A stretch of 64,000 nt of DNA from Membranipora membranacea (taxonomy: Eukaryota; Bryozoa; Gymnolaemata; Cheilostomatida; Membraniporidae): NCBI GenBank assembly GCA_914767715.1, contig OU612066.1, positions 30,726,283 to 30,790,282 of the forward strand, read 5' to 3'. A program made the position numbers and the translations under genes. This document shows, in pieces, positions 17,424 to 63,849 of this stretch; the first letter of the stretch is position 1, and each line of letters starts with the position of its first letter. The notes under the pieces are model-generated. The model saw only the letters and a list, made by a program, of their open reading frames with translations, made no database searches and was not told the origin of the DNA.

Positions 17424-17456
17424 GTAAAAATCAGTATCTTGAGGTCAAATTGGCAG
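17424..17456 (+). CDS. Coiled-coil microexon A1 (33 nt)
   Basis: TTCCCAG acceptor, GTAAGT donor, phase 1-1. Encodes KNQYLEVKLA. First microexon I can place. Its B copy is 60,371-60,403. Confidence 0.65.
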
Positions 17457-17695
17457 GTAAGTTGTATTAATATGATATCACTCCACGTTCCTGTGTATGG
17501 TATGCACTTGTATCTGACAACGATTAAAGGCCTTAAACTCTTACCGATGTATTTAAAAAGTCATGCCAAATGTAGCATTTTTACTCACTAACAATACTGA
17601 TGAAATTCCCACTGTCATACATTAACATGATAGCTGCAGTAGCCTACTTATAAATATGACATATTTGTTTTCTTAACGCTAACCATTGCCATGAT

Positions 17696-18681
17696 TATGT
17701 ATGTATGTATATATTTGTATCAATTCTCATGATAAAATCAATGTTTCTCTTGTGCTCTGTGAATAAAAATAAAGTTTTAAAAATTATAATAAAACATTGA
17801 CTAGATTTATAATAAATGAATCAAGCTATTCGATTGAGCAGTTTTACACATAATGAGCGAAAACAGTGTTTACGGCAGTTTACACGGTAGGCTGGCACTC
17901 TGTATCTACCAGATGGGAGTTGTTCTAGCGTTATGACAGTGTCTTTGCCCGAAGCGAACATTCTCAGGCATTTAGTTTTGAAGAACTTATCGAATATATC
18001 GTCTATGGTTGTAACTTCAAGCCTGCCTTTGCTTAGTCTACGTGCTGTGTTGATGAGGTGATTGTACTGGTTCTTAATATCAGATGAGAGGTGTCCGTAT
18101 ATAATACATAGGTGACATTGTAGGACGCTTTCGAGAAATGAGGTGTATGCCAGCTTAATGGTAGTTGTCTTGACATTCATAAAGGCTAGCTGCTTCATGA
18201 TGAATAGTCGTTTGTTAGCTTTGCTGATGATGTTTTTGGTGTTCGTATTGAAGTTAAGCTTATGATTGAGTGTGGTGCCAAGATATTTGTATTCATCTAC
18301 TCGTTCGATGGCGGAGTTGTTGATCATGATGGGTGGAGGGTCAGGATCATCGCGTAGATTACAGAAAACAAGCTCTTTGGTTTTCTTTGTGTTGATGAGC
18401 AGACTGTTTCTTGTGCACCAGGATTCGATATTATTGATTTCAACTTGCAGTGATGATGGTGATTTTGGCGAGATGAATTCTAATATCACAGTGTCATCGG
18501 CGTATTTTATGATGGTGTGATCATCGCTTACTGCCATGTCGTCTACGTAAAGTGAGAAGAGGATGGGACTGAGGACACATCCCTGAGGGCATCCAGTTGA
18601 TGTTATGATGCTGTTAGATAGAGTATTACCTACTTTCACTCGCTGTGTACGTGATGACAGAAAGTTATATGACCAGGATAT
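17696..18681 (-). mobile_element. 5'-truncated non-LTR retrotransposon (CR1/Rex-like LINE)
   Basis: Absent from copy B, where CCATGATT is followed directly by GCCTGAAC. On the minus strand it runs from mid-RT to a 3' tail of ATACATACATACAT at the left edge. No clear target-site duplication. 5' truncation at 18,681 is usual for LINEs. Confidence 0.85.
17821..18639 (-). CDS. LINE reverse transcriptase, C-terminal part
   Basis: At least 272 aa, open to the truncation point at 18,681, where it is preceded by FLSSRTQRVKVGN. It has GCPQGCVLSPILFSLYVDD (RT box 4) and IKYADDTVIL (catalytic YADD), then SWCTRNSLLINTKKTKELVF and YKYLGTTL of RT boxes 6-7, and a C-terminal extension ending RSLCVKLLNRIA. 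This order fits the CR1/Rex/Jockey side of LINEs. The N-terminal endonuclease is missing, so it cannot be autonomous. It sits within an intron of the microexon gene in opposite orientation. Confidence 0.88.
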   Translation of the reverse strand: MKVGNTLSNSIITSTGCPQGCVLSPILFSLYVDDMAVSDDHTIIKYADDTVILEFISPKSPSSLQVEINNIESWCTRNSLLINTKKTKELVFCNLRDDPDPPPIMINNSAIERVDEYKYLGTTLNHKLNFNTNTKNIISKANKRLFIMKQLAFMNVKTTTIKLAYTSFLESVLQCHLCIIYGHLSSDIKNQYNHLINTARRLSKGRLEVTTIDDIFDKFFKTKCLRMFASGKDTVITLEQLPSGRYRVPAYRVNCRKHCFRSLCVKLLNRIA

Positions 18682-18689
18682 GCCTGAAC

Positions 18690-20443
18690 CATAGAGTCAT
18701 TATATACTCTAGAGTGGACAATGTGTACAAAAATAGCATCAGTTTTTGTCCTACTTAATTATTGCGAAATCCATGACGCGATGCAATCTGGTTGTGCATG
18801 GCCAGCGCCTGTATCATATAATTTATCATTGAGAATTTAGGAATTGGGTATGAAAATTTAAGTTTTAGAGCGCTAATAGCCATTTTTTCAGAAAAATTTT
18901 CATGGCACACTATGTGGAACACTTGTAGGTATTTTCACTTGCAGCCATTGGAAAAATTTTCTATTTCTTCCCATCAAAATAAGCCAAAACCCCAACCGCA
19001 AACACATCATTGTGATGAAAAAAAATTACCGGGCTAGCTTGTTTTTTCTACTGCCACTTGCCAGCCATATAAGCTGTGTCCTGTCTCTCTTACTCATATG
19101 TTACACATTCAGTGGGTCTTTTTAATTTTTGATTAAATGAAGTATGAGTAGCCTGTGAACAAGTGATCGGAGGTGTAGAAGTTTGCAGCTTGCCTCATTT
19201 TCAGCCACAATGTACATAATGTCATGATTCAGATTTGCTCTCCAGATAACGTTACTTTATTGAGGGTATTATTATCGGTTTTTTGTTTCTTATGTCAAAG
19301 AAGATCAATTAAGATTGGTGCTAAAATCAGATGTGGCGTTACTGTCAGTCCTCATTGCTCATTAGATCACTTTTTGGCTGCCTCTCTTATATTTTTATAG
19401 CATCAATCTATTTCTGCCGGAGAATCACAGCTGTGTGAAATACTAACTCTGGTCATTTCAAAGGATTGAACACCTACTACACTCATCCCCCTTCCCTCAA
19501 AACTATGCAAACAAATACACATGTATACGTCAACTGCCAGTGCCTTTTCTGGAGTATATACAAAATATTATGAGGGATGCTGAAGTTGCCATCTCAACTA
19601 ATTTACACACACAAACAAACAACCATAGTCATAATAATCATACCAGAAATTTGTATCAAACATCCACAGCGACCGCTCTGAAGCAAATGGTCCCTTATTT
19701 CAAGTATGGTGAGAAATCAGAAATATCCGTCAACTTAAAATGTCACATTAGTGAGTAATGTTCTGAAAAATCTGGAGTCAGTCAGGATAGTTTTGTTACA
19801 AAATGCATTCATTTATATGCTTTCAAAACCTGCTGTGTATGGTTGAATGGTTTTCCGAATTCAAAAACTAGAGGACACCACTGGAGAGGGAATTTAGAGC
19901 TCTAAATGACAGCCAAATCTAAACGCCGAATCTAAGTCAGAACCGTATGTAAATTGCTTCTGCAAATGGCGGAACTTAGCGGCGAACTTTTAACCTCCAG
20001 TCAGCTTTTCCACAAGCTATGTGTACACCTTATACTGAACAAATAACATTAACTCACTTGATGGCTAACATATGAGTAAAAGAGACAGAATCCAACTTAT
20101 GGTTGAGAAAAATGTGGAAAAAACAAGCTAGCCCGGTAATGTTTGCGGTTGGGGTTATGGCTTATTTTGAGGGGAAAACATAGAACAATTTTCCAATGGC
20201 TGCAAGTGAAAATACCTACAAGTGTTCCACATGGCGTGACATGAAAAATTTTCCGTAAAAATGGCTATTAGCGCTCTAAAACATAAATTTTCATGCTCAA
20301 TTCCTATATTCTCAATGATAACTTATATGATACAGGCACAAGCCATGCACAACCGGATTGCACTGCGTCATGGATTTCGCAATAATTAAGTAGGACGTTT
20401 TGAGCACTGCATTGTCCGCTCTAGAGTATATAATAACTCTATG
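18690..20443. mobile_element. Long-TIR DNA element, 1,754 bp (8-bp TSD)
   Basis: Inverted repeats of about 430 bp starting CATAGAG(T)...TATATACTCTAGAG at both tips. TSD GCCTGAAC at 18,682-18,689 and 20,444-20,451; copy B has the single GCCTGAAC. The middle (about 19,130-20,030) has no transposase. The CATA tip and 8-bp TSD resemble element Y and several micro-palindromes. Confidence 0.92.
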
Positions 20444-20635
20444 GCCTGAACTGTCTGCACAGAAGATTATTTGTTATTGGGATCATGTAATGCCTTGGAA
20501 GCTTTCTGTGTGGGATTCTGATGGTGGATTGATGCGAAAACTACATGAATACATTAAAGTTCCATATATCGCTTCACAGTTCTCCAAAACAGTTTGAGAG
20601 AATTGTTAATGATACATTTCTGTTGTCTGTTCCAG

Positions 20636-20671
20636 AAGACCAATTGAGGCGTGAACCACTGGCCATGAAAA
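20636..20671 (+). CDS. Coiled-coil microexon A2 (36 nt)
   Basis: TGTTCCAG acceptor, GTGAGT donor, phase 1-1, encodes DQLRREPLAMK. B copy: 60,836-60,871. The donor is followed by ATGATG-AGC-CATCAT, a small hairpin repeated after most exons of this class. Confidence 0.7.
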
Positions 20672-21324
20672 GTGAGTAAATGATGAGCCATCATCAATAA
20701 TAACTGTAATAGATAAACTATCTTTAATACATTTTTTGTAGCTTTATACACCCTCAAACTATTGTACCACCGAGAATAGGTTGATTTTTGTACCATACTC
20801 AAACAGACTCTTGAGTACGCCTGAATCCCAACATTAACTTATGAGTTCTGCGCTCCTACCTGCAAACTGCGAGAATTCCATTTCTCAGCCTGAGACCCAA
20901 TGATTTTGAATAAAACTTCAAATTAGTAAAAGTGTGACCTGCAATAACTCCTTACTGTGCCTATTTCGATAGTCTGCAGTGTGTTTGTAGTGCTGTAGTC
21001 CTAGTGCTATTTAAGTTAATGTAGATACTGGCCGCCCCCACCCATTTTTTTGTTGGAGCTGAGACAAGGCTAACGTCTTAGTTAAACAAATTAGACTAAA
21101 ACTCTCCAATACAATTCTACGATTAGAGACGGATGAGCAAGAATTTGTAATATAGCAAAATTATCTCACCAGTTGGATATGAGGGGACAACTTCCAAAAT
21201 ACAACATTTTCTCACAGTTTGATCCCACCCTCCCTGGTTTGATCAGGGAGGGGAATCTTCCAGGTTCATCATATTACAACTTACCTCTATGTAGATGCAG
21301 TAATGTTTTATTTATCATTTTCAG

Positions 21325-21357
21325 GAATGCTTGAAGAGCATCAGAAGGAATTGAGAG
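21325..21357 (+). CDS. Coiled-coil microexon A3 (33 nt)
   Basis: TTTTCAG acceptor, GTATGT donor, phase 1-1, encodes MLEEHQKELR. Confidence 0.7.
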
Positions 21358-21446
21358 GTATGTTATTGTAGAGGACGAATATGTACTTACATTAACTAAA
21401 CCAAAATGAACTATAAATTGGGAAATTTCTGTGTGAGCTTCTGAAG

Positions 21447-21481
21447 CAGCCTGTCTTAACAAGCTTTGTTAAGACAGGCTA
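21447..21481. repeat. Micro-palindrome insertion 3 (35 bp, 9-bp TSD)
   Basis: Arms AGCCTGTCTTAACAA in inverted orientation, flanked by CTTCTGAAG at 21,438-21,446 and 21,482-21,490. Lies in an intron of the microexon gene. Confidence 0.85.
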
Positions 21482-21606
21482 CTTCTGAAGGTGGTGAAGA
21501 CAACATTAATGCATTGAAGTTCTATATATCGCTTCACTAGTTTTTAAGTTCTCCAAAACTGTTTGAGGGAATCGTACTTGATATGCATTTCTGTTGTCTG
21601 TTCCAG

Positions 21607-21648
21607 TGATACAATTGAGGCATGATCATCAAATACAGACCTTGAAAA
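21607..21648 (+). CDS. Coiled-coil microexon A4 (42 nt)
   Basis: TTCCAG acceptor, GTGAGT donor, phase 1-1, encodes IQLRHDHQIQTLK (two heptads with the junction residue). Confidence 0.7.
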
Positions 21649-22302
21649 GTGAGTAAATGATGAGCCATCATCAATAATAACTGTAAGAGACAAACTACTC
21701 TTAGTACATTTTTTGTAGCTTTATACACCCTCAAACTATTGTACCACCGAGAATAGGTTGATTTTGTACCATACTCAAACAGACTCTTGAGTACGCCTGA
21801 ATCTCAACATTGACTATTGGGATCTGCGCACCTACCTGCAAACTGCGAGAATTCCATTCCTCAGCCTGAGACCCAATGATTTAAAAAAAAACTTCAAATT
21901 AGTAATGGTGTAACCTGCAATAACTCCTTACTGTGCCTATTTCGAGAACATAATCTGCAGTGTGTTTGTAGTGCTGTCGTCCTAGTGCTATTTAAGCTAG
22001 TGTAGATACTAGCCGCCCCCACCAATTTTTTGTTGGAGCTGAGACAAGGCTTACTTCTTAGTTAAACAAATTAGACTAAAACTGTCCAATACAATTCTAC
22101 GATTAGAGACGGATGAGCAAGAATTTATAATATAGCAAAATTATCTCACCAGTTGGATATGAGGGGACAACTTTCAAAATACAACATTTTCTCACAGTTT
22201 GATCCCACCCCCTGGTTTGATCAGGGAGGGGAATCTTCCAGGTTCATCATATTACAACTTACCTCTATGTAGATGTAGTAATGTTTTATTTATCAATTTC
22301 AG

Positions 22303-22344
22303 AAGAATGTGAAGAATTTTCAGAACTACTGAGGCAATTCAAAG
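22303..22344 (+). CDS. Coiled-coil microexon A5 (42 nt)
   Basis: ATTTCAG acceptor, GTAGGT donor, phase 1-1, encodes ECEEFSELLRQFK. Confidence 0.7.
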
Positions 22345-22587
22345 GTAGGTTGTTGTTGAGGACTAACATGTACATACATTAACTCAATCAAAATTAACTA
22401 TAAGTTCTATCGGTTAGCTCTTGGACAAGCAGCATATTATAATCGTACCAGAAGTATTGTATTTTCATAAGAAATAGATTTGTTTATGCACTTGAAAAGG
22501 GCAGATGTCTTCTCCCTTCCTCAAGTTTTCACTAGGTATTAGCATGTGTGAGTTAGAAGTAGTAATGCACTTTTACATCATTTCCAG

Positions 22588-22625
22588 GAAAAAATTGAGT
22601 ACTCAAGACCTGATTGAGAGATGGG
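22588..22625 (+). pseudogene. Decayed microexon related to A1
   Basis: TTTCCAG then sequence aligned with A1, but the phase-1 frame meets TGA after three codons and the donor is GTTGTA. The same relic recurs once per ~1.2 kb unit (about 24,003, 25,180, 26,382, 27,574) and at 62,532. Confidence 0.7.
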
Positions 22626-23052
22626 TTGTATTAATTATAAAATTACTGTCCATTCATGTGTATGGTATTCACATTTGTCTGACACTGATTAAAGGCCTTA
22701 AACTTTTACAAATAGATGTAAAAAGTCACGGCAAATGTAGCATTTTCAGTCATACTAACAATACTGTTGAAACTCCCACTGCCATACAATATCTTGATTG
22801 TTGCAGTACTTACAAATACGACCTATTTGTTTTTTTAACTCTAACCATTGCCATGATTGCCCTAACTGTGTGCACAGAAGATTACTTGTTATTGGGATCA
22901 TGTAACGCCTTGGGAGCTTTCTGTGTGGTATTCTGATGGGGGATTGATGCGAAAACGAAATAAATACATTAAAGTTCCATATATCGTTCACAGTTCTCCA
23001 AAACAGTTTGAGAGAATTGTACATTGTATACATTGTCTGTTGTCTGTTACAG

Positions 23053-23082
23053 AGAATGATCATCAAATACAGACGCAGAGAA
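23053..23082 (+). CDS. Coiled-coil microexon A6 (30 nt)
   Basis: TGTTACAG acceptor, GTGAGT donor, phase 1-1, encodes NDHQIQTQR; last base A. Confidence 0.65.
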
Positions 23083-23251
23083 GTGAGTAACTGATGAGCC
23101 ATCATCAATAATAACTGTAATAGATAAAATACTTTTAGTACATTTTTTGTAGCTTTATGTAAATACATTGAAGTTCCATATATCGCTTCACAGTTCTCCT
23201 AAACAGTTTGAGAGAATTGAACATTATATACATTTCTGTTGTCTGTTCCAG

Positions 23252-23293
23252 ATCCAGAGGAACAAGTAAGGAGTGAAATACGGACCTTGACAA
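23252..23293 (+). CDS. Coiled-coil microexon A7 (42 nt)
   Basis: TGTTCCAG acceptor, GTGAGT donor, phase 1-1, encodes PEEQVRSEIRTLT. Close paralogue of A18 (29,342). Confidence 0.7.
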
Positions 23294-23730
23294 GTGAGTA
23301 ACTGATAAGCCATCATCAGTAACAACTGTAAGAGATAAACAAATATTTAGTACATTTTTGTAGCTTTATACACCCTCAAACTATTGTACCACCGAGAATG
23401 GGTTGATTTTGTACCATACTCAAACAGACTCTTGAGTACGCCTGAATCTCAACATTGACTATTGGGATCTGCGCTCCTACCTGCAAACTGCGAGAATTCC
23501 ATACCTCAGCCTACAATTCTACGATTGGAGACGGATGAGCAAGAATTTGTAATATAGCAAAATTATCTCACCAGTTGGATATGAGGGGACAACTTCCAAA
23601 ATACAACATTTTCTGACAGTTTGATCAGGGAGGGTTGGAAGGGTTTGATCAGGGAGGGGAATCTTCCAGGTTCATCATATTACAACTTACCTCTATGTAG
23701 ATGTAGTAATGTTTAATTTATCATTTTCAG

Positions 23731-23763
23731 GAAGAAGTAAAGAAATTAAAAGACAATCTGAAG
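23731..23763 (+). CDS. Coiled-coil microexon A8 (33 nt)
   Basis: TTTTCAG acceptor, GTATGT donor, phase 1-1, starts GA, encodes RSKEIKRQSE. Confidence 0.7.
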
Positions 23764-24449
23764 GTATGTTACTGTAGAGGACGAATATGTACTTACATTA
23801 ACTCAATCAAAATGAACTATAAATTCTATCGGTTAGCTCTTGGACAATCAGCATATTATAATCGTACCAGAAGTATTGAATTTTTATAAGAAATAGATTC
23901 GTGTATGCACTACTTGAAAAGGGCAGATGCCTTCCTCAAGTTTTCACTAGGTATTAGCATGTGTGAGTTAGAAGTAGTAATGCACTTTTATATCATTTCC
24001 AGGAAAAAATTGGGTACTCAAGACCTGATTGAGAGATAGGTTGTATTAATTAAAAATCACTGTCCATTCATGTGTATGGTATTCACATTGTCTGACACTG
24101 ATTAAAGGCCTTAAACTTTTACAAATAGATGTAAAAAGTCATGGCAAATGTTGCAATACTGTTGAAACTCCCACTGCCATACAATATCTTGATAGTTGCA
24201 GTAGTTATAAATATGACCTATTTGTTTTTTTTAACTCTAACCGTTGCCATGATTGCCTGAACTGTCTGCACAGAAGATTATTTGTTATTGGGATCATGTA
24301 ACACCTCGGGAGCCTTCTGTGTGATATTCTGATGGGGGATTGATGCGAAAATGAAATAAATACATTAAATTTCCATATATCGCTTCACAGTTCTCCTAAA
24401 CAGCTTGAGAGAATTGTACATTGTATACATTGTCTGTTGTCTGTTACAG

Positions 24450-24479
24450 AGCGTCATCATCAAATACAGATGCTGAGAT
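24450..24479 (+). CDS. Coiled-coil microexon A9 (30 nt)
   Basis: TGTTACAG acceptor, GTGAGT donor, encodes RHHQIQMLR; last base T, so the next exon must start GG (TGG) to avoid a stop in the common classes. Confidence 0.65.
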
Positions 24480-24905
24480 GTGAGTAAATGATAAGCCATC
24501 ATCAATAATAACTGTAATAGATAAACTACTTTTAGTACATTTTTGTAGCTTTATACACCCTCAAACTATTGTACCACCGAGAATAGGTTGATTTTGTACC
24601 ATACTCAAACAGACTCTTGAGTACGCCTGAATCTCAACATTGACTATTGGGATCTGCGCTCCTTCCTGCAAACTGCGAGAATTCCATTCCTCAGCCTACA
24701 ATTCTACGATTGGAGACGGATGAGCAAGAATTTGTTATATAGCAAAATTATCTCACCAGTTGGATATGAGGGGACAACTTCCAAAATACAATATTTTCTG
24801 ATAGTTTGATCTGGAAGGGTTGATCAGGGAGGGGAATCTTCCAGGTTAATCATATTACAACTTACCTCTATGTAGATGTAGTAATGTTTTATTTATCATT
24901 TTCAG

Positions 24906-24938
24906 GGAGAATTGAAGAACTTATAAGACAATCTGAAG
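24906..24938 (+). CDS. Coiled-coil microexon A10 (33 nt)
   Basis: TTTTCAG acceptor, GTATGT donor, starts GG, encodes RIEELIRQSE. Confidence 0.7.
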
Positions 24939-25642
24939 GTATGTTACTGTAGAGGACGAATATGTACTTACATTAACTCAATCAAAATGAACTATAAATT
25001 CTATCGGTTAGCTCTTGGACAATCAGCATATTATAATCGTACCAGAAGTATTGAATTTTTATAAGAAATAGATTCGTGTATGCACTACTTGAAAAGGGCA
25101 GATGCCTTCCTCAAGTTTTCACTAGGTATTAGCATGTGTGAGTTATTAGTAGTAATGCACTTTTACATCATTTCCAGGAAAAAATTGGGTACTCAAGACC
25201 TGATTGAGAGATAGGTTGTATTAATTAAAAATTACTGTCCATTCATGTGTATGGTATTCACATTGTCTGACACTGATTAAAGGCCTTAAACTTTTACAAA
25301 TAGATGTAAAAAGTCATGGCAAATGTAGCATTTTCAGTTATACTAACAATACTGTGAAAACTCCCACTGCCATACAATATCTTGATAGTTGCAGTAGTTA
25401 TAAATATGACCTATTTGTTTTTTTTAACTCTAACCATTGCCATGATTGCCTGAACTGTCTGCACAGAAGATTATTTGTTATTGGGATCATGTAACACCTC
25501 GGGAGCCTTCTGTGTGGTATTCTGATGGGGGATTGATGCGAAAACGAAATAAATACATTAAATTTCCATATATCGCTTCACAGTTCTCCTAAACAGCTTG
25601 AGAGAATTGTACATTGTATACATTGTCTGTTGTCTGTTACAG

Positions 25643-25672
25643 AGTATGATCATCAAATACAGACGCAGAGAA
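25643..25672 (+). CDS. Coiled-coil microexon A11 (30 nt)
   Basis: TGTTACAG acceptor, GTGAGT donor, encodes YDHQIQTQR; last base A, paired with a GA-starting exon next. Confidence 0.65.
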
Positions 25673-26108
25673 GTGAGTAACTGATGAGCCATCATCAATA
25701 ATAACTGTAATAGATAAACTACTTTTAGTACATTTTTGTAGCTTTATACACCCTCAAACTATTGAACCACCGAGAATGGGTTGATTTTGTACCATACTCA
25801 AACAGACTCTTGAGTACGCCTGAATCTCAAAATTGACTATTGGGATCTGCGCTCCTACCTGCAAACTGCGAGAATTCCATACCTCAGCCTACAATTCTAC
25901 GATTGGAGACGGATGAGCAAGAATTTGTAATATAGCAAAATTATCTCACCAGTTGGATATGAGGGGACAACTTCCAAAATACAACATTTTCTGACAGTTT
26001 GATCAGGGAGGGTTGGAAGGGTTTGATCAGGGAGGGGAATCTTCCAGGTTCATCATATTACAACTTACCTCTATGTAGATGTAGTAATGTTTAATTTATC
26101 ATTTTCAG

Positions 26109-26141
26109 GAAGAAGTAAAGAAATTAAAAGACAATCTGAAG
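26109..26141 (+). CDS. Coiled-coil microexon A12 (33 nt)
   Basis: Identical to A8; starts GA; encodes RSKEIKRQSE. Confidence 0.7.
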
Positions 26142-26845
26142 GTATGTTACTGTAGAGGACGAATATGTACTTACATTAACTCAATCAAAATGAACTATAA
26201 ATTCTATCGGTTAGCTCTTGGACAATCAGCATATTATAATCGTACCAGAAGTATTGAATTTTTATAAGAAATAGATTCGTGTATGCACTACTTGAAAAGG
26301 GCAGATGCCTTCCTCAAGTTTTCACTAGGTATTAGCATGTGTGAGTTAGAAGTAGTAATGCACTTTTATATCATTTCCAGGAAAAAATTGGGTACTCAAG
26401 ACCTGATTGAGAGATAGGTTGTATTAATTAAAAATTACTGTCCATTCATGTGTATGGTATTCACATTGTCTGACACTGATTAAAGGCCTTAAACTTTTAC
26501 AAATAGATGTAAAAAGTCATGGCAAATGTAGCATTTTCAGTTATACTAACAATACTGTTGAAACTCCCACTGCCATACAATATCTTGATAGTTGCAGTAG
26601 TTATAAATATGACCTATTTGTTTTTTTTAACTCTAACCGTTGCCATGATTGCCTGAACTGTCTGCACAGAAGATTATTTGTTATTGGGATCATGTAACAC
26701 CTCGGGAGCCTTCTGTGTGATATTCTGATGGGGGATTGATGCGAAAATGAAATAAATACATTAAATTTCCATATATCGCTTCACAGTTCTCCTAAACAGC
26801 TTGAGAGAATTGTACATTGTATACATTGTCTGTTGTCTGTTACAG

Positions 26846-26875
26846 AGTATGATCATCAAATACTGATGCTGAGAT
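26846..26875 (+). CDS. Coiled-coil microexon A13 (30 nt)
   Basis: TGTTACAG acceptor, GTGAGT donor, encodes YDHQILMLR; last base T. Confidence 0.65.
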
Positions 26876-27301
26876 GTGAGTAAATGATAAGCCATCATCA
26901 ATAATAACTGTAATAGATAAACTACTTTTAGTACATTTTTGTAGCTTTATACACCCTCAAACTATTTTACCACCGAGAATGGGTTGATTTTGTACCATAC
27001 TCAAACAGACTCTTGAGTACGCCTGAATCTCAACATTGACTATTGGGATCTGCGCTCCTACCTGCAAACTGCGAGAATTCCATTCCTCAGCCTACAATTC
27101 TACGATTGGAGACGGATGAGCAAGAATTTGTTATATAGCAAAATTATCTCACCAGTTGGATATGAGGGGACAACTTCCAAAATACAATATTTTCTGATAG
27201 TTTGATCTGGAAGGGTTGATCAGGGAGGGGAATCTTCCAGGTTAATCATATTACAACTTACCTCTATGTAGATGTAGTAATGTTTTATTTATCATTTTCA
27301 G

Positions 27302-27334
27302 GGAGAATTAAAGAACATAAAAGACAATCTGAAG
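27302..27334 (+). CDS. Coiled-coil microexon A14 (33 nt)
   Basis: TTTTCAG acceptor, GTATGT donor, starts GG, encodes RIKEHKRQSE. Confidence 0.7.
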
Positions 27335-28038
27335 GTATGTTACTGTAGAGGACGAATATGTACTTACATTAACTCAATCAAAATGAACTATAAATTCTAT
27401 CGGTTAGCTCTTGGACAATCAGCATATTATAATCGTACCAGAAGTATTGAATTTTTATAAGAAATAGATTCGTGTATGCACTACTTGAAAAGGGCAGATG
27501 CCTTCCTCAAGTTTTCACTAGGTATTAGCATGTGTGAGTTAGAAGTAGTAATGCACTTTTATATCATTTCCAGGAAAAAATTGGGTACTCAAGACCTGAT
27601 TGAGAGATAGGTTGTATTAATTAAAAATTACTGTCCATTCATGTGTATGGTATTCACATTGTCTGACACTGATTAAAGGCCTTAAACTTTTACAAATAGA
27701 TGTAAAAAGTCATGGCAAATGTAGCATTTTCAGTTATACTAACAATACTGTTGAAACTCCCACTGCCATACAATATCTTGATAGTTGCAGTAGTTATAAA
27801 TATGACCTATTTGTTTTTTTTAACTCTAACCGTTGCCATGATTGCCTGAACTGTCTGCACAGAAGATTATTTGTTATTGGGATCATGTAACACCTCGGGA
27901 GCCTTCTGTGTGATATTCTGATGGGGGATTGATGCGAAAATGAAATAAATACATTAAATTTCCATATATCGCTTCACAGTTCTCCTAAACAGCTTGAGAG
28001 AATTGTACATTGTATACATTGTCTGTTGTCTGTTACAG

Positions 28039-28068
28039 AGTATGATGATCAAATACTGATGCTGAGAT
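28039..28068 (+). CDS. Coiled-coil microexon A15 (30 nt)
   Basis: TGTTACAG acceptor, GTGAGT donor, encodes YDDQILMLR; last base T. Confidence 0.65.
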
Positions 28069-28503
28069 GTGAGTAAATGATAAGCCATCATCAATAATAA
28101 CTGTAATAGATAAACTACTTTTAGTACATTTTTGTAGCTTTATACACCCTCAAACTATTTTACCACCGAGAATGGGTTGATTTTGTACCATACTCAAACA
28201 GACTCTTGAGTACGCCTGAATCTCAACATTGACTATTGGGATCTGCGCTCCTACCTGCAAACTGTGAGAATTCCATTCCTCAGCCTACAATTCTACGATT
28301 GGAGACGGATGAGCAAGAATTTGTTATATAGCAAAATTATCTCACCAGTTGGATATGAGGGGACAACTTCCAAAATACAATATTTTCTGATAGTTTGATC
28401 AGGAAGGGTTGGAAGGGTTGATCAGGGAGGGGAATCTTCCAGGTTAATCATATTACAACTTACCTCTATGTAGATGTAGTAATGTTTTATTTATCATTTT
28501 CAG

Positions 28504-28536
28504 GGAGAATTGAAGAACTTATAAGACAATCTGAAG
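28504..28536 (+). CDS. Coiled-coil microexon A16 (33 nt)
   Basis: Identical to A10; starts GG; encodes RIEELIRQSE. Confidence 0.7.
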
Positions 28537-28694
28537 GTATGTTACTGTAGAGGACGAATATGTACTTACATTAACTCAATCAAAATGAACTATAAATTCT
28601 ATCGGTTATCCAAAATACAATATTTTCTGATAGGTTCTTCAAATTACAACTTGCCTCTATGTTGATGCAGTAATATTTTATTTATCATTTTCAG

Positions 28695-28727
28695 AAAAAC
28701 TTGCAGAACTTGACAGGCAATTGAAAG
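28695..28727 (+). CDS. Coiled-coil microexon A17 (33 nt)
   Basis: TTTTCAG acceptor, GTAGGT donor, phase 1-1, encodes KLAELDRQLK, a good coiled-coil segment. Only about 160 nt from A16, a short intron compared with the rest. Confidence 0.72.
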
Positions 28728-28861
28728 GTAGGTTGTTGTTGAGGACTAACATGTACATACATTAACCAAAATGAACTGAAAATTCCACTGGTGAGCTGAT
28801 GTAGACGTATTACTATTGGATCATAAACATTATAATCATTACAGAAGTATTGCATTTTCAG

Positions 28862-28950
28862 TTGTAATATGATGAACCTAGAAGATTCCCCTCCCTGATC
28901 AAACCAGGGAGGGGAATCTTTTAGGTTCTTCATATTACAACTTGCATCTA
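28862..28950. repeat. Intronic hairpin in the microexon array
   Basis: AGTTGTAATATGATGAACCT and AAGATTCCCCTCCCTG are answered by their near-complements across a 7-nt loop, giving arms of about 37 bp. A shorter version (CCCTCCCTG...CAGGGAGGG) precedes other 33/42-nt exons (about 21,229, 22,206, 61,463). Confidence 0.75.
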
Positions 28951-28985
28951 TGTAGATGCAGTAATGTTTTATTTATCCTTTTCAG

Positions 28986-29001
28986 GAATGCATGAAGAGC
29001 G
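28986..29001 (+). pseudogene. Truncated microexon relic
   Basis: TTTTCAG followed by GAATGCATGAAGAGCG matches the start of exon A3, then jumps into intron sequence (TTATACTAACAATACTG), so no donor remains. It is a deletion junction inside the array. Confidence 0.65.
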
Positions 29002-29274
29002 TTATACTAACAATACTGTTGAAACTCCCACTACCATACAATATCTTGATAGTTGCAGTACTTACAAATACGACCTATTTGTTTTTTTAACTCTAACCAT
29101 TGCCATGATTGCCCTAACTGTGTGCACAGGAGATAATTTGTTATTGGGATCATGTAACGCCTTGGAAGCTTTCTGTGTGGGATTCTGATGGTGGATTGAT
29201 GCGAAAACTACATAAATACATTAAATTTCCATATATCGCCTCACAGTTCTCCTAAACAGTTTGAGAGAATTGAA

Positions 29275-29302
29275 CACTGATTTATAATATTATAAATCAG
29301 TG
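29275..29302. repeat. Micro-palindrome insertion 4 (28 bp, 8-bp TSD)
   Basis: Perfect palindrome with arms CACTGATTTATAAT, flanked by GAATTGAA at 29,267-29,274 and 29,303-29,310. Homologous introns in the array (for example near 23,214) have the single GAATTGAA, an empty site. Confidence 0.93.
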
Positions 29303-29341
29303 GAATTGAACATTGTATACATTGTCTGTTGTCTGTTCCAG

Positions 29342-29383
29342 ATCCAGAGGAACAACTGAGGAGTGAAGTACAGACCTTGAAAA
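29342..29383 (+). CDS. Coiled-coil microexon A18 (42 nt)
   Basis: TGTTCCAG acceptor, GTGAGT donor, phase 1-1, encodes PEEQLRSEVQTLK. Last microexon before the constant 3' exons. Confidence 0.72.
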
Positions 29384-30068
29384 GTGAGTAACTGATAAGT
29401 CATCATCAGTAACAACTGTAATAGATCAACTATTTTTAGTACATTTTTTGTAGCTTCATACACCCTCAAACTATTGTACCACCGAGAATAGGTTGATTTT
29501 GTACCATACTCAAACAGACTCTTGAGTACGCCTGAATCTCAACATTACTTGATTAGCCATCACCAGGAAAAGCTGCCATAGATTTCTAAAATAAAACATT
29601 TTTTAATACATTTTTGTAGCTTTGAACACCCTCCAACTATTGTACCCACCGACAATAGATTGACTTTGTCCCATACTCAAACAGACTCTTGAGTACACCT
29701 GAATCCAAATATTGACTATTAACTAGTTGGTTCTGTGCTCCTACCTGCCTGCAAACTGAGAAAATTACATTTCTCAGCATTTGGACCTTCTGTTGTTAAA
29801 AACAACTTTAAATGGTTATTGTGTGACAGGATTTACAAATACAGTGCCATCTTCAAGCATAGTCTGCAGTGTGTTTGGCTTGTATGCAGTGCCCAGTTCA
29901 TTTTAAGCTATTTATGATTGTGTAGATGCTAGCCCCCTCCCACTTTTTTTGTGTTGGAGCCATATAAGGCTATGGTCTAAGCTTAACACATTATACTAAA
30001 ACCAAAACTCAATAATCCACAAAACTTCAGTTTTGTGTTTATGATAAACGCATGCGTAAAGAAAACCC

Positions 30069-30104
30069 CATAAACATATAAATAAGAGTATTTATATGTT
30101 TATG
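30069..30104. repeat. Micro-palindrome insertion 5 (36 bp, 8-bp TSD)
   Basis: Arms CATAAACATATAAATA in inverted orientation around a 4-nt centre, flanked by GAAAACCC at 30,061-30,068 and 30,105-30,112. Confidence 0.93.
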
Positions 30105-30197
30105 GAAAACCCAAACCAGTACCTCATATCACTTTTTCAGAAAATGTTTTTGAAATAAAACAGAAGAAACGGCTGAATCACAGTCCTGTGTTCTACC

Positions 30198-30237
30198 CAT
30201 GGACTTAATATACTCCCGATAGTATATTAAGTCTATG
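30198..30237. repeat. Micro-palindrome insertion 6 (40 bp, 8-bp TSD)
   Basis: Arms CATGGACTTAATATACT / AGTATATTAAGTCTATG, flanked by GTTCTACC at 30,190-30,197 and 30,238-30,245. The tip (CATRGACTTAATATA) is shared in part with 41,444 (CATAGAC). Confidence 0.92.
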
Positions 30238-30385
30238 GTTCTACCACATATGTTTAGTATAACCAGTTGAGGTGGAGCTATTTATATTTTTTTGTCTGAT
30301 ATGTGCCATGAAAGCTTGAAATCAATTAAAATTAAATCCCATATATCTCCAACATACATCAATGAAAATCAGTAAGCTTCAAAGG

Positions 30386-30458
30386 CTTGGGTGACCGAGT
30401 GGCTAGTGTGCTCGATCACAGCGCAAGTGGCCTATGTTCAATTCCCGGTTGTGACCAA
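30386..30458 (+). repeat. tRNA-like relic (SINE head)
   Basis: GGTGACCGAGTGGCTAGTGTG resembles an A box and TGTTCAATTCCC a B box about 35 nt later. Pairing of the acceptor ends is poor, so this is a tRNA-derived repeat rather than a tRNA gene. Confidence 0.5.
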
Positions 30459-30534
30459 AAAAGATGTGAATTATCTAATATTTCTATATATACCACGTGG
30501 AGACCATTTTTTCTATTACCCTATTGGCATCTAT

Positions 30535-30975
30535 ATCATTTACATCTTATATACAATTATATAGTATTTACAATTATATATTATATATTTTATAAATATA
30601 TTTTATATGTAATTATATATTATTAACAATCATATATTATTTACAATTATAAATTATATACAATTCCATATTCTATTTAATTCTATTTTATATACAATTA
30701 TATATTATATACAATTATATTTAATAATCAATTACATATTATATACAATTATGTATTATATACAATAATACATTATATACAATTATATTTTATAATCAAT
30801 TACAAATTATATACAATAATATATTATATACAATTCTATATAATATACAACTATATATTATTTACAATCATTTACAATATAAAAGATATATTTATAAAAA
30901 ATTATATACAATTATGTACAATATACAATTAACATTTTACAATAAACAATATACAATTATATATAAATGTACCAC
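30535..30975. repeat. AT-rich degenerate satellite (TATATACAATTATATAT)
   Basis: About 440 bp of interspersed TATATACAATTATA and variants, nearly all A/T with periodic single C. It lies between two tRNA-like segments (30,386 and 30,985), within the intron before the constant exons. Confidence 0.9.
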
Positions 30976-30984
30976 AATTATAAC

Positions 30985-31030
30985 ATGCTGGTTGCTCGAG
31001 AGGCCAAACCGAGTTCAAATCCCGGTGAAG
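30985..31030 (+). repeat. tRNA-like B-box segment
   Basis: GCTGGTTGCTCGAGAGGCC followed by CGAGTTCAAATCCCGG, the latter a near-consensus tRNA T-arm/B box. Cut off on its 5' side by the AT satellite. Confidence 0.45.
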
Positions 31031-31171
31031 ACAGATTTTATTTACATCATCTCTTTTACTACTTGGTGGTTTAACTTGTTTCGTTTTGGTACCTATTTAT
31101 ATACTTCTTACACCCACTACATCATTAAATTTAAACACCTGGATTAATCCGCAATGTGCTTCGCTGGCTTC

Positions 31172-31236
31172 AGCGGCCCAGCGTGGCTGAGCGGTTGGAG
31201 TGTTTGATGTCAGCCCGAGTTCAAAAGTCCGCCTGA
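31172..31236 (+). repeat. tRNA-Leu/Ser-like relic
   Basis: GCGTGGCTGAGCGGTTGGAG is a good class II tRNA D-arm, followed by CGAGTTCAAAAGTCC. The sequence in between is too short and unpaired for a working tRNA. Confidence 0.5.
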
Positions 31237-31387
31237 ATCCCAACATGGACTATTGGGTTCTGCGCTCCTACCTTCAAACTGCGAGAATTCCATTTTTCAA
31301 CATTTTGATCTTGCGTTTTTAAGAACAATTTTAAATTGTTTTATGACCAGCAATTACTCATTACTAATTCCCTGTTTCATTATCCAG

Positions 31388-31518
31388 ATATTGAAGGTCA
31401 GTTTGCAGATCTAGAGTTAGCAGATGATGATAGTGATGATAACGCTTCCTTGACATTGCTTGACTCACCTGAGCTAGCGTCAACCAGTCAACCTCCATCA
31501 CAACCAATATTGGAAGGG
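31388..31518 (+). CDS. Microexon gene: acidic constant exon (phase 1 to 0)
   Basis: TTATCCAG acceptor; GTAAGG donor. The 131 nt start in phase 1, matching the microexons, and end in phase 0, matching the next exon. Residues begin IEGQFADLELADDDSDD and continue with a Ser/Thr/Pro/Gln-rich stretch (LASTSQPPSQP). It links the coiled-coil array to the globular-looking C-terminus. The phase change is what marks the end of the symmetric cassette. Confidence 0.8.
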
Positions 31519-33141: not shown

Positions 33142-33714
33142 AATGACATGACTGTGCAAAAGTTCACAGAGATGGAAAACTGTGTGAGAGAAAGGATCGC
33201 TGAGTTCCGCTCAGCAGATGACTGCCTTCAGGTCACGATTGTATGGATGCGTTCAAGAAACACCTGCAACTCTATGTTTCACTTGATCGCTGGATCTCTA
33301 AATGAACCCATGGACTTTGAAAACGGGGATAAAGTTGTAAGCACCCATTGGTTTCTAAATGATCAACTCCACCAATGTATAAAAGAGAATTGTGAAGAAG
33401 CACTGCGGTCATTGGAAGGCCAAGACAAGGTAGAAGCTCTGTTGAAAAACAATCCCAGTTTCGTGGTCACCAGATCTCTGCCTACTTATGAACCCTGTGA
33501 CGAAGAAAGTGATAGTGGCAGTGACAATGAAGACGAGAGTGAAGAAGAATACTGCTATAAATGCAATGATATCGTGCTCCCTGAGGAGCAGCCAGGAAAC
33601 GAAGCATACGTTCATGTTAACAGCGACTTGAAGATGGAGGTCTTTAAGCCTCAAAGTCCTTCAAAGATCAAATATCTGTCTACACAGTATAGGCAGTTCA
33701 TGGAGGATGGTGAG
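33142..33714 (+). CDS. Microexon gene: constant exon 2 (unrecognised protein)
   Basis: TTATTCAG acceptor and GTGTGT donor, phase 0-0, 191 aa beginning NDMTVQKFTEMENCVRERI. A predicted alpha/beta-looking segment with four Cys (about residues 20-150) is followed by a strongly acidic stretch (CDEESDSGSDNEDESEEE) leading into YCYKCN, a lone CxxC. I do not recognise a family. Splicing to the exons on either side keeps one open frame. A GTGAGG four codons earlier is an alternative donor but would not keep frame with the next exon. Confidence 0.82.
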
Positions 33715-34113: not shown

Positions 34114-34209
34114 AAATATAAAATCTACAATATATACCGGATCAGACAGAAACTTAAGCAAGCAAACGAACAGATCAGGAGGTATAATGATAGAAGTGGT
34201 GTTGTTGAG
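34114..34209 (+). CDS. Microexon gene: constant exon 3
   Basis: 96 nt, phase 0-0, TATTTCAG acceptor, GTGAGA donor. Very basic helix-like stretch (IRQKLKQANEQIRRYNDR). Its frame fits exactly between exons at 33,142 and 34,634. Confidence 0.78.
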
Positions 34210-34633: not shown

Positions 34634-35065
34634 GTAAAAAATGTTTCAACAGCGATCACTGTTGCCAGTCGGCTTCTTCTCAAGGACACCATGAGCCAGT
34701 CCGATGCCACGGTGTTTATTCGTAGAGGTCTGATTCACTTTGCTAATTATCACACTCATATTCTGGAGAGTAGCTATGAAGGAGCCTGGACAGCCTCTAT
34801 CTCTCATTTCTACTGTGAGGATCTGGACAAGCTTGCTGCAGGTCAGTTGGAAGGCGAGAGCATCAAGATCTGCCATCTAGAGCTAGGCAAGCCTGAGGTT
34901 ATGCATCACAATAAAGGGATATCTGTCAGCTTTGCTTCGGATGGTGGTGTTCTCCAGCTAGCAGTTGATGCCGAATTCGAGCACAACACCAAGAAGGATC
35001 CTGATGGGAAACTCAGCAAGAAGTTTACTCTAGAAGTTTTCAACACAGACCCACAAAATGAAATG
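34634..35065 (+). CDS. Microexon gene: constant exon 4
   Basis: 432 nt, phase 0-0, acceptor CTTTTGAAG, donor GTGAGT. Starts VKNVSTAITVASRLLL and contains alternating beta-like segments (GISVSFASDGGVLQLAVDA). No family recognised and no signal or membrane segment. The acceptor has a weak pyrimidine tract, but both the frame and conserved-looking codon use support it. Confidence 0.82.
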
Positions 35066-35157: not shown

Positions 35158-36192
35158 CTCACTCCACAAGACATCTCTGACCTTCAAATAATACTAGGAG
35201 GGAAAGAAGATGGTATCAAGTCGGAGGCACAAGCTGACATGGGGAATGTCGTAGTGTGTGAAGTCGTTATAGGTTCAAGGCTAAAGAGAACCAAGACACC
35301 ATCATGTCGAGCAAAACTGGTCAAGTACAGAGCGGATCCGAGAATAGAAAAGACGCATCGTGTCATCATGGCCCTCGGGAATTCGTCAAACATTAAACTC
35401 CCACGATCAATTACATACCGAGATCCACTTACCACAGCAGTGTTTTTTAGTCGGACTGTAACAGATGATGACTTAGCTCGGAAACTCGAATCATACTATA
35501 AAGCTAAGATTGACAAGCTTGATACCAGTAGCAACAGACAATGCAAGAAACTGAAGAAGATGGAGGGAGTGACACCCTTTCAGCAGCACCTACATGCGTG
35601 TCCTGCCATCACTCCAAATATCAGTTCCATGAGCAATCAATGCGAGTGCAAGTTCAATGATGAACTGTTTTCCTTTGAGCAACACAGTATGAAAGTCAAC
35701 TCATTGGATAGCTATGCTGTTGCAAACGCAGTTGAAATTGGACAACAAATTCAGAGGTTTGAGGAGCAAGATTTGAATGGCGTTCACTCAACAACACCAG
35801 GCTCAGATAGTAGTGGTTATGACTCCCCTCGGCACTCAATTGGTGAAGAAGAGCTTGGTACAATGCCAAAAAGAGTTGCTGGAATCGGTCTCCGTGGCAA
35901 GAGTTGTATAACACAGGATTCTTATGAACGTATCAAGCAGTACATAGAAGGATATCTGCCAAACTCATTCCTATTTCCAACAGCTCAAATGGCTATACAG
36001 ACAATCGGACCGCCTGCTAATTTTGGTGCACACCGTGGATGTTTGGTTAATTGGGTTGATGATAGTGCTCATATACCATTCCATGTTCCTGGCTGGGAAG
36101 CTAACTGCCAACTCACTGATAGAGAAATGGAGAAATCGTTCGGATTGACAAAGGAGCAAACGCTTGCCCATCCGCAGAGAACAACATCCTAA
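35158..36192 (+). CDS. Microexon gene: terminal exon
   Basis: TTTTCTCAG acceptor, 344 codons to TAA at 36,190. Begins LTPQDISDLQIILGG. The middle has Cys-containing positions (HLHACPAI, QCECKF) and a Ser-rich linker (TTPGSDSSGYDSPRHS). The last ~110 residues (QDSYERIKQYIEGYLP ... FHVPGWEANCQL ... FGLTKEQTLAHPQR) look like a compact domain I cannot assign. With the upstream constant exons the C-terminal part is about 754 aa. Together with 206 aa from 18 microexons, the visible protein is roughly 960 aa, N-terminus unknown. It is likely intracellular, as no hydrophobic segment was seen. Confidence 0.85.
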   Translation, partial: LTPQDISDLQIILGGKEDGIKSEAQADMGNVVVCEVVIGSRLKRTKTPSCRAKLVKYRADPRIEKTHRVIMALGNSSNIKLPRSITYRDPLTTAVFFSRTVTDDDLARKLESYYKAKIDKLDTSSNRQCKKLKKMEGVTPFQQHLHACPAITPNISSMSNQCECKFNDELFSFEQHSMKVNSLDSYAVANAVEIGQQIQRFEEQDLNGVHSTTPGSDSSGYDSPRHSIGEEELGTMPKRVAGIGLRGKSCITQDSYERIKQYIEGYLPNSFLFPTAQMAIQTIGPPANFGAHRGCLVNWVDDSAHIPFHVPGWEANCQLTDREMEKSFGLTKEQTLAHPQRTTS

Positions 36193-46661: not shown

Positions 46662-47624
46662 ATCATCTATGATATAAATGTGGGGTATCGAGCCATTACA
46701 AAAAGAACTAATCTCAGAAAGAACTGCTTTCGCGCTGAAGCAGTAGTTGTTCTTATTGAATTATTTAATAGTGAAGGAATATATTTTTATTACCATACAT
46801 TTTATATCATATTTCTTATAAGCTCTCATCTTTTATCAGCAGGAAACATTTTATTTGTCATCATTGACACAATAAAGGTACATACATGTACTGTACAAGC
46901 CCATTATCCTGTCACTTCCATTACTTTTAACTACTGATTCTTTCCACATAAATTACAAATAAAACCATTTTCATCTCCATCGTCAGGGGATAGCGTACAA
47001 TACTGTAATATAGTATTTGTTGAGAATTCCAGCCTTTGCAGTTATTTAAAGTAGATATAAGTTGCAGTTCGCTCGGTTTGTACTGTCCATACCCCACCAT
47101 TACATCAATTATGAGCACAGAGGGGAGGCAAGTTCTAACTCTATCCATAATTTATACCCAGATAGACTGTGAATTTTCTCATTGTAAAAATACTGCATAA
47201 CTTATGGAGAACTAGCTGCCTGACTATATATTGCTTTAGTCTTTGTGTAGTGTACACAAAACACAATCACTATGTTTCCATGTGAGTTTCGAGATCAAGC
47301 TGAGTTGTCACCACTTGGCTCGATCTCGAAATATGCAGGCATTCCCATGTTAGAGCTGAGAAAAAACACTGTGTACCTTATGGCTAATTATGTGTAGGCG
47401 CTTTGTTTTCACCTCACTGTACAATACTCAATCTGGTATGCTGTTCCACGGGATATTGTTTCCTGATCAACAAATGCAACCCTGCAGAGTTTAAACATGT
47501 ATTTCAGGTGCTACCACACATGGAAGCAATCAAACATCAAATTTGGATGAAATCTTTTACTTGTATACAATTAATCAGACAATGGTTATGAGCAGTAATG
47601 CAGTGAAATTATTATTATTTTAGT

Positions 47625-47850
47625 CGAGGGGTCAGTTGCAATGTCTGGGAGACTTTCTGACCAAGACGAGAAGTCTAAGTCTGCTTACGACAATAAGTTG
47701 AATAAAGATGCTGACCGGCTGAGAGCTGGTCCAGATGGGCAGACTGCAAAGGTTGCAATATCAGATCAGAGCCGTTTATGGAGTGATGATGATGGTGAGT
47801 CAGAAGATGATGGTAAATACTGTTTAAGATGCAAACAATGTTCAATGTGA
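47625..47850 (+). CDS. Possible terminal exon, unrecognised acidic/CxxC protein
   Basis: TATTTTAG acceptor-like site followed by an open frame with ATG at 47,641 and stop at 47,848. The 69 residues are hydrophilic (DQDEKSKSAYDNKLNKDADR) and end SDDDGESEDDGKYCLRCKQC. The acidic run followed by YCxxC recalls the constant exon at 33,142 (DESEEEYCYKC), which may hint at a paralogous fragment. No upstream exon found. Confidence 0.35.
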
Positions 47851-54151: not shown

Positions 54152-54153
54152 GG

Positions 54154-60370: not shown

Positions 60371-60403
60371 GTAAAAATCAATATCTTGAGGTCAAATTGA
60401 CAG
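60371..60403 (+). CDS. Coiled-coil microexon B1 (33 nt)
   Basis: TTCCCAG acceptor, GTAGGT donor, phase 1-1, encodes KNQYLEVKLT. Confidence 0.65.
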
Positions 60404-60835: not shown

Positions 60836-60871
60836 AGGACCAATTGAGGCGTGAAACACTGGCCTTGAAAA
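60836..60871 (+). CDS. Coiled-coil microexon B2 (36 nt)
   Basis: TGTTCCAG acceptor, GTGAGT donor, encodes DQLRRETLALK. Confidence 0.7.
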
Positions 60872-61559: not shown

Positions 61560-61601
61560 GAAGAATTGAAGAACTTGCAGAACTAAATAGGCAATTGAAA
61601 G
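61560..61601 (+). CDS. Coiled-coil microexon B3 (42 nt)
   Basis: ATTTCAG acceptor, GTAGGT donor, encodes RIEELAELNRQLK. Confidence 0.72.
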
Positions 61602-61981: not shown

Positions 61982-62023
61982 GAAGAAATGAAGAATTTGC
62001 AGATCTAAATAGGCAATTGAAAG
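61982..62023 (+). CDS. Coiled-coil microexon B4 (42 nt)
   Basis: ATTTCAG acceptor, GTAGGT donor, encodes RNEEFADLNRQLK. Confidence 0.72.
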
Positions 62024-62254: not shown

Positions 62255-62287
62255 GAAGCAATGAAGAACTTAAGAGGCATTTAAAAG
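62255..62287 (+). CDS. Coiled-coil microexon B5 (33 nt)
   Basis: TTTTCAG acceptor, GTAGGT donor, encodes SNEELKRHLK. Confidence 0.7.
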
Positions 62288-62996: not shown

Positions 62997-63026
62997 AGTA
63001 TGATGATCCAAAACAGACGCTGAGAA
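62997..63026 (+). CDS. Coiled-coil microexon B6 (30 nt)
   Basis: TGTTACAG acceptor, GTGAGT donor, encodes YDDPKQTLR; ends A, next exon starts GA. Confidence 0.62.
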
Positions 63027-63425: not shown

Positions 63426-63467
63426 GAAGAAATGAAGAACTTGCAGATCTAAATAGGCAATTGAAAG
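63426..63467 (+). CDS. Coiled-coil microexon B7 (42 nt)
   Basis: ATTTCAG acceptor, GTAGGT donor, encodes RNEELADLNRQLK. Confidence 0.72.
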
Positions 63468-63816: not shown

Positions 63817-63849
63817 GAAGAACTGAAGAACTGTCAAGGCAATTTGATG
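63817..63849 (+). CDS. Coiled-coil microexon B8 (33 nt)
   Basis: TTTTCAG acceptor, GTATGT donor, encodes RTEELSRQFD. The array continues past the window end. Confidence 0.7.

Follow-up and report, generated by a model that had tools for sequence, protein, structure and literature searches.

How does a gene use, and how does it come to vary, a long row of exons of only 30 to 42 nt set before a constant 3' part? The question is raised by a 64,000-nt stretch of the genome of the bryozoan Membranipora membranacea (assembly GCA_914767715.1, contig OU612066.1, positions 30,726,283 to 30,790,282 of the forward strand; G000:C2:30726283-30790282 in our numbering), referred to here as the window. The cluster was surveyed in the window plus a 100 kb flank; coordinates below 0 or above 64,000 lie beyond the window. 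Duplications within the window were charted by piecewise self-BLAST, and the genome searched comprised 339 Mb in 18 contigs. At the level of the sequence we find a defined exon structure and three open gene copies, in which modules have been gained and lost and splice sites hardly vary; from copy to copy, the coding modules diverge several-fold more than do the introns or the dead exons of their own array. That the exons diverge in excess, and that the cluster has three copies, is new here and goes beyond the preliminary description of this locus. We think it probable that the locus is a three-copy cluster in which a coil made of duplicating microexons has been diversified by selection, the coil forming a fast-changing recognition or pairing surface joined to a constant effector part.

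The microexons were found by a mechanical splice-site scan for AG acceptors and GT donors. In the first gene copy the scan recovered all 18 microexons listed in the preliminary description, with the same lengths (30, 33, 36 or 42 nt) and splice sites, all of them symmetric phase 1, between 17424 and 29383 (Table 1). Their predicted linear splice is a stop-free 618 nt, or 206 residues, that enters the constant exon at 31388-31518 in phase 1 and runs to a stop at 36192; a splice check bore out the earlier claim of an open, in-phase junction with the constant exons. Three module types can be told by splice-site context and sequence: C (the first module), A (30, 36 and 42 nt), and B (33 and 42 nt). 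The first base is codon position 2 in the microexons and in constant exon 1, and codon position 1 in constant exons 2-5. All five constant exons of copy 1 have AG acceptors and GT donors, and the complete array and constant 3' part of this copy lie inside the window.

Constant exon 2 has exactly three scored places in the genome, all in tandem on the same contig, C2. They belong to three gene copies arranged in tandem, whose open microexons number 18, 18 and 9 (copies 1, 2 and 3). The modules of copy 2 run from 60371 to window coordinate 71056 and its constant exons start at 73942; copy 3, beyond the window, has its modules at 96327-101373 and its constant exons from 104257. The span first assigned to the gene, 17,424 to 36,192, holds the array and constant part of copy 1, but a second array starts within the window, a third lies beyond it, and the first coding exon is likely to lie outside that span. 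With all modules joined in genomic order, the three arrays give 206, 211 and 107 residues and contain no stop.

A count against chance was made by taking every exact family acceptor in the window and flank, with no filter on length or frame. A consensus donor follows within 65 nt in 48 of the 54 acceptors, and in 48/48 of these the donor distance is a multiple of three; an open phase-1 frame is present in 45. The nine acceptors without an open module are three near-identical copies sharing one in-frame TGA and six that are truncated and have no donor. The 45 modules represent 39 distinct DNA sequences and 39 distinct peptide sequences, thus no two modules differ only synonymously. In four aligned units of copy 1 the intron indels are 10, 10, 10, 10 and 18 nt long, whereas exon lengths differ only by multiples of three. 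Growth and shrinkage of the coil by copying of microexons, proposed at the outset, is supported by the 18, 18 and 9 modules, by relic (lost) modules at 16 places in one BLAST-based survey and 3 more in later scans, and by duplicated units of ~1.2 kb in copy 1 and 4.365 kb in copy 2.

The evidence for diversification comes from comparing modules with the DNA around them. The ~1.2 kb units of copy 1 are indeed near-identical, as had been noticed: four of them align with 26/1126 non-exon columns varying, against 14/63 exon columns (Fisher P 2.6e-9). When the array exons were sorted into 20 non-overlapping closest pairs, each exon being used once (40 of the 45 exons), 102/696 exon sites and 173/5739 flank sites differed (Fisher P 3e-32, Wilcoxon P 1.2e-4). 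Across the 20 type-B exons of 33 nt (B33) the mean pairwise difference is 0.289 in the exon and 0.014 in the 20 nt upstream, with identical 15-nt acceptors; for the nine type-A exons of 30 nt (A30) it is 0.179 in the exon and 0.000 in the 40 nt upstream. Ten decayed type-C exons, which serve as a non-coding control, give 0.036 in the exon, 0.040 and 0.071 upstream, and 0.134 over the 20 nt that directly follow the exon. The pattern used to find these relics prescribes many letters and biases their divergence low, although 9/10 were also found by BLAST; in the pattern-free alignment of the four units, 0/38 relic columns vary compared to the 14/63 coding ones (P 7e-4). Since relic exons within the shared duplications show no excess, the excess goes with coding and not with an exon-shaped spot in the repeat.

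The changes also bear on the protein. All 14 variable coding columns (14/14) fall in codons whose residue differs between units, and in the youngest pairs (flank divergence <0.01; 11 pairs, not independent) nonsynonymous divergence (dN) is 0.078 and synonymous divergence (dS) 0.000. Positive selection on the modules is likely from these comparisons, and the coil probably diversifies for the recognition of a partner. In the mechanism we propose, the modules would normally all be spliced in genomic order; unequal exchange between repeats would alter the module number and keep the introns alike; and selection would favour new residues in the coil, acting on whole modules while exchange keeps their introns uniform. 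The coil would be the fast-changing recognition or pairing surface and the constant part would carry an effector function, the candidate partners being self, a pathogen, or the product of another gene copy.

Several observations weigh against selection. Random non-stop changes would be amino-acid-changing at 81.5%, and 14/14 then has a P of 0.057; one of the 14 changes, at a GA/GG junction, would be silent on one path. At a flank divergence of 0.03-0.06 dN is 0.215 and dS 0.159, synonymous sites being raised too, and at 0.10-0.15 the values are 0.371 and 0.500; because dS is raised in these older pairs, part of the excess may be due to module swapping, or to introns homogenised by gene conversion, and not to selection on single residues. 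Three of the 20 closest pairs have no exon differences (23731/26109, 66650/71015 and 62997/65277), the pair 61982/63426 has no excess (1/42 exon vs 5/281 flank), and the duplicated unit of 4.365 kb in copy 2 yields only 6/108 vs 38/2191 (P 0.015). In ungapped columns, the flank at +21..+40 downstream of the B33 exons (0.280) and that at -40..-21 of the 42-nt type-A exons (0.548) are as variable as the exons.

Module swapping without selection is the main rival explanation: conversion and recent duplication would have homogenised the introns and splice sites, with the modules keeping old differences or being swapped in blocks. The raised synonymous sites of the older pairs agree with it, as does the near-identity of the acceptor flanks throughout whole families, which would leave the exon as the one place to see a conversion tract that spans both exon and flank. 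It sits poorly with the dead C exons of the array, which lack the excess, pattern-located as they are, and with the absence of synonymous change in the most recent pairs; we regard it as distinctly unlikely. Hypermutation targeted to exons and changing module letters only would fit the acceptor side, where the excess stops at the exon borders. Coding and dead exons, however, behave unlike each other, and we know of no such system for microexons in animals; this explanation appears extremely improbable.

The modules are predicted to form a coiled coil. Hydrophobic periodicity peaks at 3.52 residues in copy 1 and 3.54 in copy 2, and 0/500 shuffles reach either peak; the pattern in these two copies is thus heptad-like, while the periodicity of copy 3 is not significant (71/500 shuffles). 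The modules had been described as heptads or hendecads. The first term holds, but the second was rejected for the array as a whole, the power in copy 1 being 16.5 at 3.50 and 2.2 at 3.67. The arrays contain 1, 0 and 0 Cys (copies 1, 2 and 3). Seven of the nine 30-nt modules stand directly before a 33-nt module, and such a pair encodes 21 residues, or three heptads. Of the 171 forward junctions possible in copy 1, 163 are open and 8 give a stop; all eight follow the T-ending 30-nt exons at 24450, 26846 and 28039, and leaving out just the one 33-nt exon that comes next gives a stop in each case. These skip-stops, together with the sum of three heptads, speak for the pair as a unit, which had been raised earlier as a question of co-inclusion.

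The same junctions bear on whether alternative splicing chooses among the modules in the manner of Dscam, so that a single gene would yield many coil isoforms. All modules are symmetric phase 1 and nearly all forward junctions are open, the exon arrays of brown algae are reported to be alternatively spliced (PMC11378527), and copies 2 and 3 carry, ahead of constant exon 1, an internal exon X (see below) that could give coil-less or short forms. Full read-through in genomic order is, on the other hand, open in all three copies, so that module choice is not required and inclusion of every module is possible. The three T-ending 30-nt exons require a GG- or AT-starting exon next, and arithmetic shows that omitting one 30-nt or 33-nt exon puts the heptads 3 or 4 residues out of register. 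We consider module choice by splicing unlikely, if a serious contender, and retain joining of all modules in the proposal above.

The constant frame of about 750 codons is open in all three copies (754 residues of constant part were analysed). Exon 5 has 379 and 367 codons in copies 2 and 3 and ends farther downstream, vs 344 codons in copy 1; relative to copy 1, both also have a constant exon 1 shorter by 27 nt, and in copy 2 exon 4 has 15 additional nt. A search of the constant exons against protein databases had been proposed, and it succeeded for exon 2, which matches one protein (P0001) of a metagenome contig with 47% identity (E 1.5e-35), and gave nothing for the other constant exons. 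Since this relative exists, constant exon 2 codes and outlives this genome. No Pfam family reaches its cut-off in the constant part, and no NCBIfam match was obtained with constant exons 2, 4 and 5. In the protein collection as queried, neither the whole constant part nor exon 5 had a homologue, and PDB sequences likewise gave none for the constant part; exon 5 found no match among viral contigs and exon 2 none among prokaryote genome contigs. DUF7605 was rejected as a candidate (E 0.053 and 0.01, short of its cut-off, and no match in P0001), and ATG3, the best PDB profile match (E 0.0029 over 44 positions), was not taken as homology. AlphaFold2 run without an alignment gave a mean predicted local distance difference test score (pLDDT) of 42.2 for constant exon 2 and 31.3 for constant exon 5.

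Two points from the gene copies as wholes also tell against a diversified recognition family. The constant part is, judged by its codons, under weak constraint (dN/dS of 0.59-0.73 between copies), and copy 3 looks partly decayed, with a constant exon 1 acceptor that reads GG, a truncated upstream exon X and the non-significant coil periodicity. The whole cluster might then consist of decaying pseudogenes, the open modules being survivors, and the relic modules and the lack of a homologue for most of the constant part in the searches made would be in keeping with that. It is difficult to reconcile with constant frames open in three copies whose length changes of 27 and 15 nt are in-frame, with 45/48 open and 48/48 symmetric modules among those bearing a donor, and with the distant relative of constant exon 2. 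We hold decay of the cluster to be very unlikely, and the selected three-copy cluster remains our preferred reading.

The most likely first coding exon of each gene is a short acidic exon, X. In copy 2 its putative coding span is 47641-47794, with a donor at 47795 (gtgagt) in symmetric phase 1 and a second phase-1 donor at 47813 (gtaaat); the X belonging to copy 1 would lie left of the window. Further copies of X are found at window coordinates -4053, 68085, 72450 and 102765, and a truncated one at 92042; the copy at -4053 has its first donor altered and the second phase-1 donor kept. X is the only open reading frame with an ATG and ending at a phase-1 donor that occurs upstream of both copy 1 and copy 2; nearer the arrays (15000-17424 and 57500-60371) there are no candidates of the kind sought. 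X, whose role as a start we infer, contains no hydrophobic stretch or hydrophobic N-terminus. The X blocks at 68085, 72450 and 102765 interrupt a type-A exon, and copies 2 and 3 each have an internal X that precedes constant exon 1 by 1.49 kb. Reading through X leads to a stop, followed by AATAAA, so X could also serve as a last exon. The site of the X block in copies 2 and 3 is occupied in copy 1, after the microexons and ahead of the constant exons, by an AT-rich array with a 17-nt period (30532-30964). In both duplicated blocks the long intron from X to the array holds a minus-strand retroelement (1-14939 and 49415-57491) that we take to be of the BEL/Pao type from its frames; the element of copy 1 has ~9.4 kb more sequence inside than its counterpart in copy 2.

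Dscam, to which the array was first likened, resembles the present genes in having exons duplicated in tandem ahead of a constant part. Its exons are Ig-domain alternatives of which one is used per cluster, whereas the present modules have 10-14 codons and can all be joined. Two other families come to mind, the schistosome MEGs, whose products are secreted with a signal peptide, and the aphid bicycle genes, named after their CYC motif. MEGs consist mostly of tiny symmetric exons and share with the present genes many very small symmetric exons, tandem clusters and accelerated evolution (PMC4350168); the microexons here, by contrast, make up ~20% of the coding sequence (206 of ~1011 residues, X counted as the start). 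Bicycle genes evolve rapidly and have many small internal exons, nearly all starting at codon position 2 (PMC9168663), as do the microexons and constant exon 1. The present genes differ: their 754-residue constant part contains 0 CYC, a hydrophobic N-terminus is lacking, and the modules are visibly duplicated repeats.

Closest in manner of working are the LRR-ROCO arrays of brown algae and the HET repeats of fungi, the present cluster being a member of neither. In the brown-algal genes, 72-nt LRR exons, one small phase-matched exon per repeat, form arrays in LRR-ROC-COR GTPases, and diversifying selection and alternative splicing are reported (PMC11378527). Common to both are tandem small exons of one phase (all 45 open modules here being symmetric phase 1), with one repeat of a binding domain per exon and a constant part joined to them, exon duplication, and repeat exons diversified beyond their surroundings, although selection on single residues is not proven here. 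Unlike them, the present modules are coil modules of 30-42 nt in an animal gene, with no LRR repeats or ROC-COR and no Pfam match at cut-off in the constant part. Fungal het-d and het-e exchange WD-repeat units within and between loci (concerted evolution) and are under positive selection at a few residues per repeat (PMC1805685). The repeat exchange and selection pattern that we propose are alike; those genes have WD repeats and a known self/non-self role, and here the repeats are predicted coiled-coil modules with one microexon each. Given these descriptions (PMC11378527, PMC4350168 and PMC9168663), the statement that no gene like this had been described was too strong; no paper describing such a gene was found among open-licence PMC papers with the few word combinations tried.

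The pattern of exon over surrounding divergence is otherwise known from fast-evolving recognition genes. A further, more tentative step, which we find doubtful as it stands, would be to regard the cluster as an animal recognition family whose specificity lies in one-microexon coil modules gained, lost and traded under immune or self/non-self conflict. If true, animals too would diversify a binding surface by arrays with one exon per module, here a coil of 10-14-residue pieces, and the cluster would be a coiled-coil, microexon counterpart of the algal LRR-ROCO and fungal HET repertoires. It would offer a natural test of how the pairing rules of coiled coils evolve, and the dead exons within the array supply a built-in neutral control of a kind rarely at hand.

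Table 1. Positions of coding and relic exons in the window (all on the + strand)
Feature	Position	Strand	Remarks	Basis
Microexon 1	17424..17456	+	type C, 33 nt	splice-site scan, splice check
Microexon 2	20636..20671	+	type A, 36 nt	splice-site scan, splice check
Microexon 3	21325..21357	+	type B, 33 nt	splice-site scan, splice check
Microexon 4	21607..21648	+	type A, 42 nt	splice-site scan, splice check
Microexon 5	22303..22344	+	type B, 42 nt	splice-site scan, splice check
Microexon 6	23053..23082	+	type A, 30 nt	splice-site scan, splice check
Microexon 7	23252..23293	+	type A, 42 nt	splice-site scan, splice check
Microexon 8	23731..23763	+	type B, 33 nt	scan, splice check, unit alignment
Microexon 9	24450..24479	+	type A, 30 nt, T-ending	scan, splice check, unit alignment
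Microexon 10	24906..24938	+	type B, 33 nt, GG-starting	scan, splice check, unit alignment
Microexon 11	25643..25672	+	type A, 30 nt	scan, splice check, unit alignment
Microexon 12	26109..26141	+	type B, 33 nt	scan, splice check, unit alignment
Microexon 13	26846..26875	+	type A, 30 nt, T-ending	scan, splice check, unit alignment
Microexon 14	27302..27334	+	type B, 33 nt, GG-starting	scan, splice check, unit alignment
Microexon 15	28039..28068	+	type A, 30 nt, T-ending	scan, splice check, unit alignment
Microexon 16	28504..28536	+	type B, 33 nt, GG-starting	splice-site scan, splice check
Microexon 17	28695..28727	+	type B, 33 nt	splice-site scan, splice check
Microexon 18	29342..29383	+	type A, 42 nt	splice-site scan, splice check
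Constant exon 1	31388..31518	+	phase 1 in, phase 0 out; first codons (IEGQFADLELAD) B-module-like	
Constant exon 2	33142..33714	+	one relative outside the genome (P0001)	
Constant exon 3	34114..34209	+		
Constant exon 4	34634..35065	+		
Constant exon 5	35158..36192	+	with stop codon	
Exon X, copy 2	47624..47794	+	probable first coding exon, ATG 47641; 171 nt acceptor to donor	inferred
Copy 2 microexon	60371..60403	+	type C, 33 nt	splice-site scan
Copy 2 microexon	60836..60871	+	type A, 36 nt	splice-site scan
Copy 2 microexon	61560..61601	+	type B, 42 nt	splice-site scan
Copy 2 microexon	61982..62023	+	type B, 42 nt	splice-site scan
Copy 2 microexon	62255..62287	+	type B, 33 nt	splice-site scan
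Copy 2 microexon	62997..63026	+	type A, 30 nt	splice-site scan
Copy 2 microexon	63426..63467	+	type B, 42 nt	splice-site scan
Copy 2 microexon	63817..63849	+	type B, 33 nt; ten further ones beyond the window, to 71056	splice-site scan
Relic exon	24002..24038	+	decayed type C, one of ten, non-coding control	unit alignment, BLAST, pattern
Other relic exons (starts)	22587, 25177, 26380, 27573, 62530	+	decayed type C	unit alignment, BLAST, pattern

The intron after microexon 1 of copy 1 carries an insert (17697-20440) with a minus-strand reverse transcriptase frame that is not present in copy 2. A small perfect-looking hairpin insertion in copy 2 (61016-61038, AATGAACTCCCTCTTCAGGGAGTTCATT) is not found in the copy-1 counterpart, and short palindromes resembling it occur at other places in the window. 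At 39450-40869 lies the last part of a mitochondrial ribosomal protein L16 gene, in a copy with an in-frame TGA and a frameshift; an open version is at L006:5448-5732, partial copies are at window coordinates -13367 and 82830, and the fragment marks the tandem duplication unit. The flanking genes encode a Sushi repeat and a thyroglobulin type-1 repeat (L013:4199-4516 and L005:2186-2521).

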